Shown in pieces: positions 2,064-8,673 of a stretch of DNA of 64,000 bases. The position numbers were made by a program, and so were the translations under genes. Position 1 is the first letter of the stretch, and every line of letters starts with the position of its first letter. Source of the stretch: Candidatus Zixiibacteriota bacterium (GTDB lineage Bacteria; Zixibacteria; MSB-5A5; GN15; FEB-12); the NCBI GenBank assembly GCA_022571845.1, contig JACZXB010000002.1, forward strand, positions 231,979 through 295,978, written 5' to 3'. Under the pieces are notes generated by a model that saw only the letters and a program-made list of their open reading frames with translations, made no database searches and was not told where the DNA came from.

Positions 2064-3998
2064 ATGTCAAATGTGCAAATAAAATTTCCGGACGGCTCAG
2101 TAAGAGATTTCGAATCCGGCGTTACCGGTTTCGATGTGGCCAAGTCAATTTCGCCCCGACTGGCCAAAGAAGCCGTGGCTATAAAAGTTGACGGCAAAGT
2201 TACTGACTTAAGCCGGCCGGTTGCAGACAGCGCACCGGTGCAAATACTTACTTTTAATGATCCCGAAGGCCGCCAGGTGTTCTGGCATTCCAGTTCCCAC
2301 ATTATGGCACAGGCGGTACAGGAACTTTTTCCAAAGGTTAAGCTGGCCATAGGCCCGCCGATTGATACCGGCTGGTACTACGATTTCGAGGTCGATAAGC
2401 CCTTTACTCCTGAAGACCTGCAGCGTATTGAAAAGCGGATGAAAGAAATCGTCACCGAAAAGGCCGCATTCAGCTGTCAGGAAAAAACCCGCCAGGAAGC
2501 CATAGACTATTTCAAAGCGAAAGATGCCAATTATAAAGTAGAAATATTAGAAGACCTGGATGTTGAAAAAGTCACTTTCTACTACCAGTCAAGATTTGAA
2601 GACCTCTGCCGCGGCCCGCATATTCCCAGCACCGGTATCGTCAAAGCATTTAAGCTGACTTCAACTTCCGGTGCTTACTGGCGCGGAGATGAAAAAAGAC
2701 AAATGCTCCAGAGAATTTACGGAGTATCTTTTCCCAAGAAATCACTTTTAGATGAACATCTTCAACTTTTAGAAGAAGCCAAAAAGCGCGACCATCGACT
2801 GCTCGGCAAACAGCTGGAACTGTTTCTTTTTTCCGAGGAAGTTGGCGCCGGTTTGGTTTTATGGTTGCCCAAAGGCGCTCGTATTCGAAATGAAATAGAA
2901 AACTTCTGGCGGCAGGAACACCTGAAATATGGCTATGAGCTGCTCTATTCTCCCCATATAGCCCATCGTTCTTTGTGGGAGCGGAGCGGCCATACTGATT
3001 TCTACAATGAGAGTATGTTTGGTCCGATGGAAGTCGACCAGCACCTGTATCAACTCAAGCCAATGAACTGTCCATTTCATATTATTATGTATAAGTCCCG
3101 TCTCTGGTCATATCGTGATTTGCCGCTGCGCTGGGCGGAGCTTGGTACTGTCTATCGTTACGAACGCCCCGGAGTTCTGCACGGTCTGCTTAGAGTACGC
3201 GGCTTTACCCAGGACGATGCCCACCACTTTGTGGCACAAGACAAGATGGAAGAAGAATTAAGCTGGACGCTTGATTTTTGCACTCACATTCTTGCCGCGT
3301 TTGGCTTCAAAAACTACGATATAAGACTTTCCACCAGACCGGAAAAAGCGATAGGCGACCCGGCCGACTGGCTGCGGGCCGAAGCCGGGCTCAAAATGGC
3401 TCTCGATAAAGCCGGCTTAAAATATGAAATTGACGAAGGCGGCGGTGCTTTCTATGGCCCCAAGATTGATATTTTGATTAAAGATTGCCTGAACCGCTCC
3501 TGGCAATGCTCTACGATACAGTTCGATTTCTCTCTGCCGGAACGATTTGACATGAATTACATCGATTCCGACGGCAAACAAAAGCGCCCTTATATGATTC
3601 ACCGGGCTTTGCTGGGCTCAATCGAAAGGTTTTTCGGGGTGCTGCTGGAGCATTATGGCGGTAATTTCCCGCTCTGGCTGGCGCCGGTTCAGGTCAAGAT
3701 TCTGCCGATAACAGATAATTACATAGAGTTTGCTAAAGAAATTCGGGAAAAACTCCAATCTGCTGATATCAGAGCAGAAGTAGACGATCGCTCCGAAAAA
3801 ATTGGGGCAAAAATTCGCGTTGCGGAGTTGATGAAAGTGCCATATATGTTTATAGTGGGGGGCAAGGAAGTAGAGTCCAAAACGGTATCGGTCAGAAAAC
3901 ATGGCCAGGGTGACCAGGGACCTATGGCGATTGATGGAGTAATCGAAATGCTTGCCACCGAAATAGCTGGAAAAGGCTTGCAAGAAAACATTGACTAG
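2064..3998 (+). CDS. thrS: Threonyl-tRNA synthetase
   Basis: A 644-aa class II synthetase of normal bacterial length that charges tRNA-Thr in the cytoplasm. An N-terminal TGS domain (about 1-62) is followed by the editing domain with HSSSH (H75, H79) and CRGPH (C182, H186), which hydrolyses mis-charged Ser-tRNA. The catalytic core (about 245-535) contains the zinc-binding/motif 2 region LKPMNCPFHI and RYERPGVLHGLLRVRGF. The C-terminal anticodon-binding domain starts near LAPVQVKILPI. It begins the conserved order thrS-infC-rpmI-rplT-pheS-pheT. Its TAG stop overlaps the ribosome binding site of infC. Confidence 0.97.
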   Translation: MSNVQIKFPDGSVRDFESGVTGFDVAKSISPRLAKEAVAIKVDGKVTDLSRPVADSAPVQILTFNDPEGRQVFWHSSSHIMAQAVQELFPKVKLAIGPPIDTGWYYDFEVDKPFTPEDLQRIEKRMKEIVTEKAAFSCQEKTRQEAIDYFKAKDANYKVEILEDLDVEKVTFYYQSRFEDLCRGPHIPSTGIVKAFKLTSTSGAYWRGDEKRQMLQRIYGVSFPKKSLLDEHLQLLEEAKKRDHRLLGKQLELFLFSEEVGAGLVLWLPKGARIRNEIENFWRQEHLKYGYELLYSPHIAHRSLWERSGHTDFYNESMFGPMEVDQHLYQLKPMNCPFHIIMYKSRLWSYRDLPLRWAELGTVYRYERPGVLHGLLRVRGFTQDDAHHFVAQDKMEEELSWTLDFCTHILAAFGFKNYDIRLSTRPEKAIGDPADWLRAEAGLKMALDKAGLKYEIDEGGGAFYGPKIDILIKDCLNRSWQCSTIQFDFSLPERFDMNYIDSDGKQKRPYMIHRALLGSIERFFGVLLEHYGGNFPLWLAPVQVKILPITDNYIEFAKEIREKLQSADIRAEVDDRSEKIGAKIRVAELMKVPYMFIVGGKEVESKTVSVRKHGQGDQGPMAIDGVIEMLATEIAGKGLQENID

Positions 3999-4007
3999 GA
4001 GGAACTT

Positions 4008-4625
4008 ATAACAAGCAAAAAGAAGCTGCGCGTAAACGAAACTATTAGAATCTCTCCCATAAGGCTTATAGGAATGGAAGGAGAGCAGGTAGGTATAATT
4101 CCAACCAATGAGGCCATACAAAGAGCCAGGGATGCCGGACTTGATTTAGTCGAAGTTGCGCCAACCAGCCGCCCTCCTGTCTGCCGGATTCTCGATTATG
4201 GAAAATACAAGTACGAGCAATCCAAAAAAGAGCGCATATCCAAAAAGAAACAGCACTCTTTCCAGATGAAAGAGATGCGCTATCGGCCAAAAATCGACGA
4301 GCATGATTATCAGTTTAAAACTAAACATGTCAAAGAGTTTCTAAGCTCAGGCAGTAAAGTTCGGGCTTTTGTCATGTTTCGCGGCCGTGAAATGGCTTAT
4401 ACCGAAATGGGCAGAAAACTTCTGCAAAGGCTTGTTGAGGATGTATCAGAAATTGCCGATGTTGAGTCAGCACCCAAGATGGAAGGCCGGACAATGAGCA
4501 TGGTTGTGTCCCCTAACTCTCAGATAATGAAAGAGTTAAAGAAAGCTTACAGCGATAAGTCAGAAGACAAAAAGACTGAACCAGCTGATGAAGAAAAAGT
4601 TGAAAAAACAGCAAGCGAAGAGTAG
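4008..4625 (+). CDS. infC: Translation initiation factor IF-3 (AUA start)
   Basis: IF-3 binds the 30S subunit, prevents premature 50S joining and discriminates against non-canonical start codons. The conserved core begins KLRVNETIRISPIRLIG and continues through VGIIPTNEAIQRARDAGLDLVEVAP to the C-terminal domain RPKIDEHDYQ. The first ATG in frame (4074) would cut off the essential N-terminal strand. AGGAGG at 3997-4002 lies five bases before ATA at 4008, and no ATG, GTG or TTG suits, so the start is read as AUA, giving 205 aa. Rare starts in infC are known to give autoregulation (E. coli uses AUU). The tail after about residue 175 is a Lys/Glu/Asp-rich extension. Confidence 0.93.
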   Translation: MTSKKKLRVNETIRISPIRLIGMEGEQVGIIPTNEAIQRARDAGLDLVEVAPTSRPPVCRILDYGKYKYEQSKKERISKKKQHSFQMKEMRYRPKIDEHDYQFKTKHVKEFLSSGSKVRAFVMFRGREMAYTEMGRKLLQRLVEDVSEIADVESAPKMEGRTMSMVVSPNSQIMKELKKAYSDKSEDKKTEPADEEKVEKTASEE

Positions 4626-4667
4626 AAAAATTTACTATATTAGTCAGCTAGGAAGGAAATTTTAGAT

Positions 4668-4859
4668 ATGCCAAAGATGAAAACACGCCGCGCGGCCGCC
4701 AAAAGATTTAAGAAAACGGCCTCCGGTAAGATAAAAAGAAATCGTGCCTACAAGGGGCACATACTGACCAAGAAATCACCAAAGCGCAAACGCAAGCTGC
4801 GTAAGTCAACTCTGGTGTCCAAAGCTGATTTTAAGAGAGTAAATAGATTAATTCAATAG
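4668..4859 (+). CDS. rpmI: Ribosomal protein bL35
   Basis: A 63-aa, strongly basic protein beginning [20 protein letters not shown], the conserved bL35 N-terminus, with [16 protein letters not shown] in the middle. It is part of the large ribosomal subunit. AGGAAGGA lies upstream of ATG 4668. Length and position between infC and rplT are standard. Confidence 0.97.
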
Positions 4860-4890
4860 CTTGTTGGAATTGATTTAGGAGTAAAATTTA

Positions 4891-5241
4891 ATGCCAAGAT
4901 CCAGAAATACAGTTGCCGGCCATAAGAGACACAAAAAAGTCCTCAAACGTGCCCGGGGCAACTATGGCGCCCGCAGCCGCCTGTATAGAACAGCTGTTGA
5001 AACAGTCAACAAAGGCTTAAAATACGCCTACCGTGACAGAAGAAATAAAAAACGAGAATTCCGTTCTTTATGGATAACTCGTATCTCAGCAGCAGCCAAA
5101 ATTTGTGGTACAAATTATTCTACTCTTATGTTTGGACTAAAACAATCCGGCGTAAACTTAAACCGAAAGATGCTGGCAGATATAGCCGCCCGTGATATGG
5201 CTACTTTCAAAAATCTGGCAGAGATGGCTGCAGTCAAATAA
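4891..5241 (+). CDS. rplT: Ribosomal protein bL20
   Basis: A 116-aa basic protein, an early assembly protein of the 50S subunit. It has the typical N-terminus (VAGHKRHKKVLKRARGNYGARSRLYRTA) followed by the helical globular domain (RDRRNKKREFRSLWITRI). AGGAG is upstream of ATG 4891. In several bacteria bL20 represses its own operon by binding leader mRNA; no matching pseudoknot was identified here. Confidence 0.97.
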   Translation: MPRSRNTVAGHKRHKKVLKRARGNYGARSRLYRTAVETVNKGLKYAYRDRRNKKREFRSLWITRISAAAKICGTNYSTLMFGLKQSGVNLNRKMLADIAARDMATFKNLAEMAAVK

Positions 5242-5261
5242 ATTAAAATTCGAATATATAA

Positions 5262-6275
5262 ATGCCGCTTCTTGAACAGATTATTCAGTTAGAAAAAGAA
5301 GCTCTTGAGCGAATCGGAAACTCCGATTCGCTCGATTCGCTTAATGCCATTCAGGTTGAATATCTGGGACGAAAAGGAAAAGTTACTGCTGTTCTTAAAC
5401 AGCTAAAAGACGTCCCCCCCCAAAAACGCCAGCAGATAGGTGCTGCTGCTAACAAACTTAGAGTAAAGCTCGAAAACTTACTTAAAGAAAAGCAGGCTGC
5501 CTTTGCCGTTTCAGGCACCAAGACAGTCTTCGACCCGACCCTGCCCGGCACAGCCCCCAGGGTGGGCGCTCCCCATATTATCAATCAGGTCATGGGGGAG
5601 ATCTGCCAGATCTTTTATGGTATGGGTTTTGAAATTGCCCACGGACCCCATATTGAAACCGATTATTTCAATTTTGAAGCGCTGAATTTTCCGCGCGACC
5701 ATCCGGCCCGAGATATGCAGGACACTTTTTTTGTCGAAGGCGGACGGCTTCTTCGTACTCATACCACACCGGTACAGTCAAGAATACTGGCCAGCAGAAA
5801 ACCACCCATAAAAATAATAACTCCCGGACTCTGTTTCCGCTATGAAACAATAACCACCCGCTCCCATGTTGCCTTTTATCAGGTAGATGGTTTCATGGTC
5901 GACGAAGGAGTGACAATGGCTGACCTAAAAGGCGCTCTGGTGGCTTTCTGCCGAGAGTATTTTGGGAAAGGACTGAAATATAAATTCCGCCCCTCGTATT
6001 TTCCATTTACGGAGCCATCGGCGGAACTTGATATTTCCTGTTTTCTTTGCGATGGCAGAGGCTGTCAGCTTTGCAAGTATTCGGGATGGCTGGAAATACT
6101 TGGCTGCGGTATGATTGACCCCCATGTCCTGGAGCACGCTGGTATAGACAGCGAAAAATACACCGGCTATGCCTTTGGAATGGGCGTAGAGCGGCCGGCC
6201 ATGCTTAAACATAAAATAACTGATATCCGGATGTTTTTTAATAACGACGTTAGATTCTTAAGGCAGTTTCTCTAA
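5262..6275 (+). CDS. pheS: Phenylalanyl-tRNA synthetase alpha subunit
   Basis: A 337-aa class II catalytic subunit that, with PheT, charges tRNA-Phe. The N-terminal coiled coil (about 1-85) is followed by the catalytic core with HPARDMQDTFFV, RTHTTPVQ, the QVDGFMVDEGV region and the C-terminal GMGVERPAMLKH motif 3. Four cysteines in SCFLCDGRGCQLCKYSGW resemble the Cys-rich loop of many bacterial PheS. It is separated from pheT by one base. Length is usual. Confidence 0.97.
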   Translation: MPLLEQIIQLEKEALERIGNSDSLDSLNAIQVEYLGRKGKVTAVLKQLKDVPPQKRQQIGAAANKLRVKLENLLKEKQAAFAVSGTKTVFDPTLPGTAPRVGAPHIINQVMGEICQIFYGMGFEIAHGPHIETDYFNFEALNFPRDHPARDMQDTFFVEGGRLLRTHTTPVQSRILASRKPPIKIITPGLCFRYETITTRSHVAFYQVDGFMVDEGVTMADLKGALVAFCREYFGKGLKYKFRPSYFPFTEPSAELDISCFLCDGRGCQLCKYSGWLEILGCGMIDPHVLEHAGIDSEKYTGYAFGMGVERPAMLKHKITDIRMFFNNDVRFLRQFL

Positions 6276-6276
6276 A

Positions 6277-8673
6277 ATGAAACTTCCTTATAGCTGGCTT
6301 GTCGAACTTACCGGTTCCAAGTGGCCCGCTGAAGAGATGGGTGAGCGCCTGACTCTGTGCGGTATCGCCTGCGAAGATATAGAGCCTACCGCCAGATACT
6401 TTGACAAAGTTGTAGTCGGTAAAGTTCTCGATATCAAATCTATTCCGGGCGCTGACAAAATAAGACAGGCGACGGTCGACATCGGCAAAGAAAAGCTCGA
6501 CCTGGTCTGCGGCGCCCCGAATCTCAAAGTAGGCCAGAAGGTGCCGGTCGCTAAACTTGGTGCCAAACTTGCCGGCGGTATAGAAATAAAAAAAGCCCAC
6601 ATCAGGGGCATAGAATCATCAGGAATGATCTGCTCCGAATCCGAGCTTGGTATTTCGCAGGAGCACACAGGAATTTTAGTTCTTGATGATAAGTGCAGAG
6701 TTGGAGTTTCTCTGGCCAAAGCCCTTGATTACGACGACTATATTATGACATTTGAACTGACTCCAAACCGCGGCGATTCAATGTCCGCCATCGGCGTGGC
6801 CCGCGATATTGCAGCGCTGTCTTCATCAAAAATTATCCGTCCTAAATTCAAAATTAAGCCTTCTAAAGAGAAAGCCGGCAAATGTATAAAAGTTGAAATT
6901 GAAGACACAACTGCCTGCCCAAGATACGCTGCTCGTATTATCAAAGATATCACCATTGCTGATTCCCCCTGGTGGCTAAAGAAAAAGCTGCTGATGTGCG
7001 GCATCAGACCTATTAACAATGTTGTCGATATCAGTAACTTTGTAATGCTGGAATGCGGTCACCCGCTGCATGCTTTTGACTTAAATCGTTTCGGCTCAAA
7101 CAAAGTCGTCGTGCGCCGTGCCAGAAAAAATGAAATATTCAAAACCCTCGATGAAAAGGAACATAAGCTCAGCCCCGAAGTCCTTCTGATCACCAACGGC
7201 AAAAAAGCAGAAGCCGCCGCCGGGGTAATGGGCGGACTTGATTCTGAAGTGGGTGAAGCCACCACCGATATTCTTTTAGAGGCTGCTTATTTCAATCCTG
7301 CGGTTATTCGCAGAAGCCGCAAATTCTTGAACATGACCTCGGAATCGCAGGCTCGTTTTGAAAAGGGAGTCGACCCCAACGGCATCGAATACGCCATTGA
7401 CAGAGCCGCTTATCTGCTGCAGGAGCTTTGTGGCGGGAGTGTCTTGAGCGGCATGGTCGATTGCTACCCCAAAAAGATTAGGCCGTGCAAAGTCGCGTTC
7501 CGGCCTCAAAGATGTAACGACCTGCTGGGCACTAACTACAAGACCTCACTTATGAAAAAAGTCTTTAAAGACTTAGGCTTTAAAGTTGCAGGTACAAATT
7601 CAAATGATAAAAAGCTTTCGGTAATAGTGCCTACCTTCCGTCCCGACGTAGAAAGAGAAGTAGATTTAATTGAAGAAATTGCCCGTATCCGCGGATATGC
7701 AGAAATACCTGACGTAGCTAGCAATATGGGGCCGCTTTTTACGCCTGTTCATCCTCAGGATAAATTCAAAGAAGATATGCGCAGACTAATGACAGGGCAG
7801 GGTTTTGATGAAATAATGGGACATGGTTTTGATGACAGCCGTCTGGCATCACTTGTAAATCCCAATCAACCGCTTCTAAAAATATCAAATCCGAATTCTG
7901 TTGAGCTAAATGTCATGCGTAATTCGCTGATTTCCTTTGCTCTTACAGTTATAAAAAATAACATCGCTCAAAGAAATCTTGACCTATGTCTGTTTGAATA
8001 CGGTAAAGTTTATTTTCCTCCGGATGCCAAAGGCAACTGGTGCGAAGAATACAGGCTGCTAGTTCTTGCTACCGGTCAGACACGGCAGTCATGGCGAGAC
8101 TCTTCTCGCAAATACGATTACTATGACCTGGCCGGTGTTCTTGAAAACTTAAGCTCGCGTTTTAAGATGCCAGGATTCGAATTTTCAAATAGCAGTTTCA
8201 AATGCTTTGACAATCAGCTATCGTTTGAAATCAAGTCTGATGGAAAAGTCATTGGCAAAATTGGAAAAATTGATAATGCCATTGCAGCCAAATTCGACCT
8301 AAAGCAAGCGGTCTACATAGCAGAGCTGCCGATTCCAGGCTTAATTGAATTGAGCGACAACAAGAGGCTGTTTGAAGCTTTGCCTATTTATCCGGCATCT
8401 TCAAGAGATTTGGCTATAGTGGTTGACGAAACGGTAAAAGCAGGCGATATTGTTTTCAAGGTAAGAGAGGCTGCAGGCAAGCTGGCAGAGCATGTCTCAA
8501 TCTTTGACCTCTATCAAGGCAAGCAGATTGCCAAAGGAAAAAAGTCTTTGGCCATATCAATCAGCTACCGCTCGTCGGAATCGAGCTTGGAGAGCAATCA
8601 AGTGGATGAAAGACAAAGGCTTGTAGTTGGCAGCCTAAAGAAAGAGTTTAACGCTGAGATACGGGACAAGTGA
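6277..8673 (+). CDS. pheT: Phenylalanyl-tRNA synthetase beta subunit
   Basis: A 798-aa structural and editing subunit of PheRS. It has an EMAP-type tRNA-binding domain (about 40-150, with GADKIRQATVDIG and VCGAPNL), the B3/B4 editing domain (about 210-390, with RPINNVVDISNFVMLECGHP), B5 (DLIEEIARIRGY), a catalytic-like core, and the C-terminal FDX-ACB anticodon-binding domain starting near LPIYPASSRDLAIVVDE. The gene starts one base after pheS and its TGA overlaps the next reading frame, so the operon continues. Confidence 0.97.
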   Translation: MKLPYSWLVELTGSKWPAEEMGERLTLCGIACEDIEPTARYFDKVVVGKVLDIKSIPGADKIRQATVDIGKEKLDLVCGAPNLKVGQKVPVAKLGAKLAGGIEIKKAHIRGIESSGMICSESELGISQEHTGILVLDDKCRVGVSLAKALDYDDYIMTFELTPNRGDSMSAIGVARDIAALSSSKIIRPKFKIKPSKEKAGKCIKVEIEDTTACPRYAARIIKDITIADSPWWLKKKLLMCGIRPINNVVDISNFVMLECGHPLHAFDLNRFGSNKVVVRRARKNEIFKTLDEKEHKLSPEVLLITNGKKAEAAAGVMGGLDSEVGEATTDILLEAAYFNPAVIRRSRKFLNMTSESQARFEKGVDPNGIEYAIDRAAYLLQELCGGSVLSGMVDCYPKKIRPCKVAFRPQRCNDLLGTNYKTSLMKKVFKDLGFKVAGTNSNDKKLSVIVPTFRPDVEREVDLIEEIARIRGYAEIPDVASNMGPLFTPVHPQDKFKEDMRRLMTGQGFDEIMGHGFDDSRLASLVNPNQPLLKISNPNSVELNVMRNSLISFALTVIKNNIAQRNLDLCLFEYGKVYFPPDAKGNWCEEYRLLVLATGQTRQSWRDSSRKYDYYDLAGVLENLSSRFKMPGFEFSNSSFKCFDNQLSFEIKSDGKVIGKIGKIDNAIAAKFDLKQAVYIAELPIPGLIELSDNKRLFEALPIYPASSRDLAIVVDETVKAGDIVFKVREAAGKLAEHVSIFDLYQGKQIAKGKKSLAISISYRSSESSLESNQVDERQRLVVGSLKKEFNAEIRDK

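Follow-up and report, generated by a model that had tools for sequence, protein, structure and literature searches.

Translation of infC in this operon of a Candidatus Zixiibacteriota bacterium cannot be assigned to any of the usual initiation codons without truncating its product, which raises the question of where synthesis of initiation factor IF3 begins and whether the start codon itself could control it. The gene was found in the window, that is, the whole stretch of 64,000 nucleotides that was analyzed, within the order thrS-infC-rpmI-rplT-pheS-pheT (2064-8673), which is the usual one, as in E. coli (compared for thrS-infC-rpmI-rplT-pheS). The sequence across the putative start reads GAC TAG GAG GAA CTT ATA ACA AGC AAA AAG AAG CTG CGC GTA AAC GAA, with only GAG GAA CTT between the thrS stop codon and ATA. 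Since this stop codon lies in the infC frame, that frame can open only after position 3998. The overlap between the stop codon and the Shine-Dalgarno sequence also suggests that infC is coupled to the translation of thrS.

Table 1. Features around the putative infC start, in window coordinates.
Feature	Position	Strand	Basis or remark
thrS, threonyl-tRNA synthetase	2064..3998	+	ORF; product sequence and E. coli gene order
thrS stop codon TAG	3996-3998	+	same frame as infC
Shine-Dalgarno sequence AGGAGG	3997..4002	+	overlaps the thrS stop codon TAG
Putative infC initiation codon ATA	4008..4010	+	5 bases (AACTT) after AGGAGG; conservation in Zixibacteria
infC, translation initiation factor IF3, 205 aa from ATA	4008..4625	+	TIGR00168, IF3 structures, PF05198
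First in-frame ATG, rejected as infC start	4074..4076	+	22 codons past ATA
rpmI (L35), ATG start	4668..4859	+	product sequence and synteny with E. coli
rplT (L20), ATG start	4891..5241	+	product sequence and synteny with E. coli

The protein translated from ATA was identified as IF3 by its match to TIGR00168, the NCBIfam equivalog for infC (224.5 bits over residues 4-171, against a cut-off of 60), by the presence of both IF3 domains, and by full-length alignments, from residue 5 or 6, with the IF3 structures 8jsg (E=7.6e-50) and 5lmn. The only match to PF05198 (IF3_N) in the whole genome begins at codon 4032, so that the equivalog and domain matches both reach upstream of ATG 4074. An in-frame scan after the thrS stop codon detected no ATG, GTG, or TTG before 4074, which places the first canonical start inside a conserved domain. 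Under genetic-code table 11, on the other hand, ATA is among the permitted starts and yields the complete protein. Thus, three claims of a preliminary description of this DNA were borne out: that an AGGAGG lies five bases before ATA, that the protein from that codon matches IF3 from its first conserved residues, and that initiation at ATG 4074 would remove 22 residues including KLRVNE. Gene finders restricted to ATG, GTG, and TTG will clip those residues from IF3 in this genome.

The combination of AGGAGG and ATA is no evidence by itself, since the pattern AGGAGG-N4-7-ATA occurs at 49 sites in the 2.75 Mb genome versus 53 for the reversed pattern. What carries the case for the ATA start is its position, where this essential gene has no other plausible start, and, more strongly still, its conservation.

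This conservation was assessed by comparing infC starts in related genomes, as the preliminary description had advised. A total of 117 infC loci from the same phylum (Zixibacteria, to which the source was assigned by its nearest named hits) were analyzed, considering only ATN and NTG codons and requiring AGGAGG or a one-mismatch form of it 3-13 bases upstream of the called start, a requirement under which 116 of the 117 loci carry such a Shine-Dalgarno sequence. The called starts were ATA (92), ATC (19), ATT (2), and NTG (3), with no call for one locus on a truncated contig; as these loci derive from related genomes, many of them draft MAGs, the counts do not represent independent events. ATA, ATC, or ATT is therefore the start in 113 of the 117 loci, and within the family of the window only ATA (38/46) and ATC (8/46) were called. 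The same picture emerged from two less constrained comparisons. When the codon eight positions ahead of the conserved Asn was simply read, whatever its identity, it was ATA in 35 and ATC in 6 of the 46 loci of this family, while the neighboring codons were mixed. When sites were chosen by Shine-Dalgarno match and spacing alone, blind to the codon, ATA was recovered in 75/117 loci and ATC in 10/117, and several of the remaining picks were off by one codon, the neighbor standing at a slightly better spacing. The form TAGGAGG, as found here where the thrS stop codon meets the Shine-Dalgarno sequence, was present at that place in 27 of 112 relatives.

Among 112 relatives, the called start had A as its third base in 91, C in 19, T in 2, and G in none. 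Inside the same IF3 genes, the ATN codons were distributed as ATG 730, ATC 516, ATT 470, and ATA 249, so the start column cannot be put down to isoleucine codon usage or to a hidden ATG. A tree of IF3 proteins requires no fewer than 14 changes of start state, three of them involving a canonical start. Thus, AUA is the prevailing predicted infC start of the phylum Zixibacteria, and a start at ATA 4008-4010 is strongly supported by the comparison across these 117 relatives. What the conservation shows is constraint on the start codon, not feedback as such. The NTG calls were limited to two distant Zixibacteria families, whose three loci (L036, L040, and L045) have no clear ATN start; these may use ATG, GTG, or TTG and would then be possible losses of the non-canonical start.

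Other locations of the start fare poorly against these data. ATG 4074 is the earliest canonical start in the infC frame and would produce a short IF3 of 183 aa, but KLRVNE and the beginning of the IF3_N domain would be lost, the only candidate ribosome-binding sequence is a partial AAGG (4061-4064) nine bases ahead, and both the residues upstream of this position and the arrangement of Shine-Dalgarno sequence and ATA are kept in relatives; we consider such a start very improbable. The near-cognate codons CTG 4026 and ATT 4044 are no more credible. Both are in frame and allowed by table 11, yet neither is preceded by a Shine-Dalgarno sequence, and the position of CTG 4026 varies within the family of the window (CTT, TTG, CTG, GTA, ATT, or CCG). 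The source assembly is a draft of 21 contigs, in which ATA might be a sequencing or assembly error for a true ATG. Nevertheless, the other two genomes of the genus (L024 and L139) carry the identical ATA, as does most of the phylum, and these independent genomes refute an error, the probability of which we regard as negligible.

With the start placed at ATA, we analyzed the initiation machinery encoded in the genome. A single initiator tRNA was found, with a CAU anticodon and the GGG/CCC stem. A search of the genome for the same stem-loop with a UAU anticodon returned nothing, and an altered initiator tRNA reading AUA was rejected on this basis. The IF3 protein keeps Y75, R99, K110, R131, R133, R147, and R168 (E. 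coli numbers), residues with a role in start selection in E. coli IF3. An mRNA structure hiding the start was also rejected, as each of 200 shuffles of the region 3950-4070 folded more stably than the region itself. Rfam matched no leader RNA in the operon, and none of the ribosomal-protein type in the stretch from infC through rpmI to rplT (4626-4890).

Initiation of infC at AUA 4008-4010, with negative feedback of IF3 through the start codon, is in our judgment very probably the best explanation of this arrangement; it is inferred from the sequence together with its conservation, and from the finding that the necessary parts are encoded in the genome. The 30S subunit would be recruited by the strong Shine-Dalgarno sequence that overlaps the thrS stop codon, and the ordinary CAU initiator tRNA would read AUA as formyl-methionine while mispairing with the third base of the codon. 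IF3 would then destabilize 30S complexes on a start codon that lacks a 3' G, and AUU, AUC, and AUA are indeed triplets against which it discriminates (PMC4611024). In this way, infC mRNA would be initiated less when free IF3 is available and more when IF3 is scarce. The preliminary description had proposed that a rare start allows autoregulation by IF3; its reasoning fits the literature (PMC5472188, PMC13009471), while the feedback itself remains an expectation for this organism.

It is also conceivable that AUA serves only to keep IF3 synthesis low through weak initiation, with no meaningful feedback. Non-canonical starts in S. aureus gave about 10% of the expression of an AUG reporter (PMC13009471), and the measurements made here would fit a low set level as well as feedback. 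On the other hand, because IF3 itself discriminates against such codons (PMC4611024), its level should alter initiation at AUA, and autocontrol of E. coli infC is reportedly lost when its AUU is replaced with AUG (Butler 1987, cited in PMC5559785). We therefore consider weak initiation alone to be quite unlikely, and retain feedback through AUA as the preferred reading.

The preference for AUA over AUU and AUC might further reflect a tuned set point, in which the A-C mismatch at the third base would alter the strength of feedback relative to AUU. This proposal is tentative and rather doubtful. The third-base preference described above departs widely from isoleucine codon usage in these genes, but it is partly explained by base composition, since loci starting with ATC have a higher G+C content (mean 0.56 versus 0.49). 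The distribution of AUA, AUC, and AUU makes the relation between codon choice and feedback strength a testable question.

Outside Zixibacteria, infC loci were taken from the 80 nearest loci, a sample chosen by similarity, in which Alphaproteobacteria used ATA in 29/48 and ATC in 11/48 loci; in these, the conserved Asn is preceded by a longer N-terminal stretch than in the gene described here (about 17 codons versus 8). ATA was also found in single infC loci from Desulfobacteraceae, Synergistota, WOR-3, and TA06. Among the spirochaetes, 12 of 13 loci (L067, L075, L080, L084, L092, L107, L114, L117, L120, L126, L127, and L133) carry TTG four bases after the Shine-Dalgarno sequence. TTG is a canonical start tolerated by IF3, and autocontrol by an AUN-type start codon may be absent in this group.

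Among characterized systems, E. coli infC is the same gene in an operon of the same order, and it too has a non-canonical AUN start behind a Shine-Dalgarno sequence that overlaps thrS: on the K-12 record infC starts with ATT, as the preliminary description had stated, and GGAGG overlaps the thrS end. It differs in using AUU instead of AUA, and in that autocontrol was established by experiment (Butler 1987, cited in PMC5559785), whereas it is predicted from sequence here. In Streptomyces, infC starts with ATC and is autoregulated, and sigR starts with GTC and is repressed by IF3 (PMC5472188); the non-canonical start is common to these genes and ours, but the codons are others, sigR is not infC, and the repression by IF3 shown there would be expected here. 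The closest parallel in codon and gene is S. aureus infC, for which retapamulin ribosome profiling detected initiation at AUA and autoregulation was proposed by the authors (PMC13009471). That organism belongs to an unrelated phylum, and its AUA start is documented by ribosome density, ours by sequence. The description of AUA as a less usual choice was thus overstated, given its majority in Zixibacteria, its frequency in the sampled Alphaproteobacteria, and the profiling in S. aureus (PMC13009471). As AUA at infC has already been published for S. aureus (PMC13009471), it is not a new kind of start; what is added here is its phylum-wide conservation, which would add a whole uncultivated phylum, with AUA and not AUU as its usual predicted codon, to the textbook example of autoregulation through the start codon.
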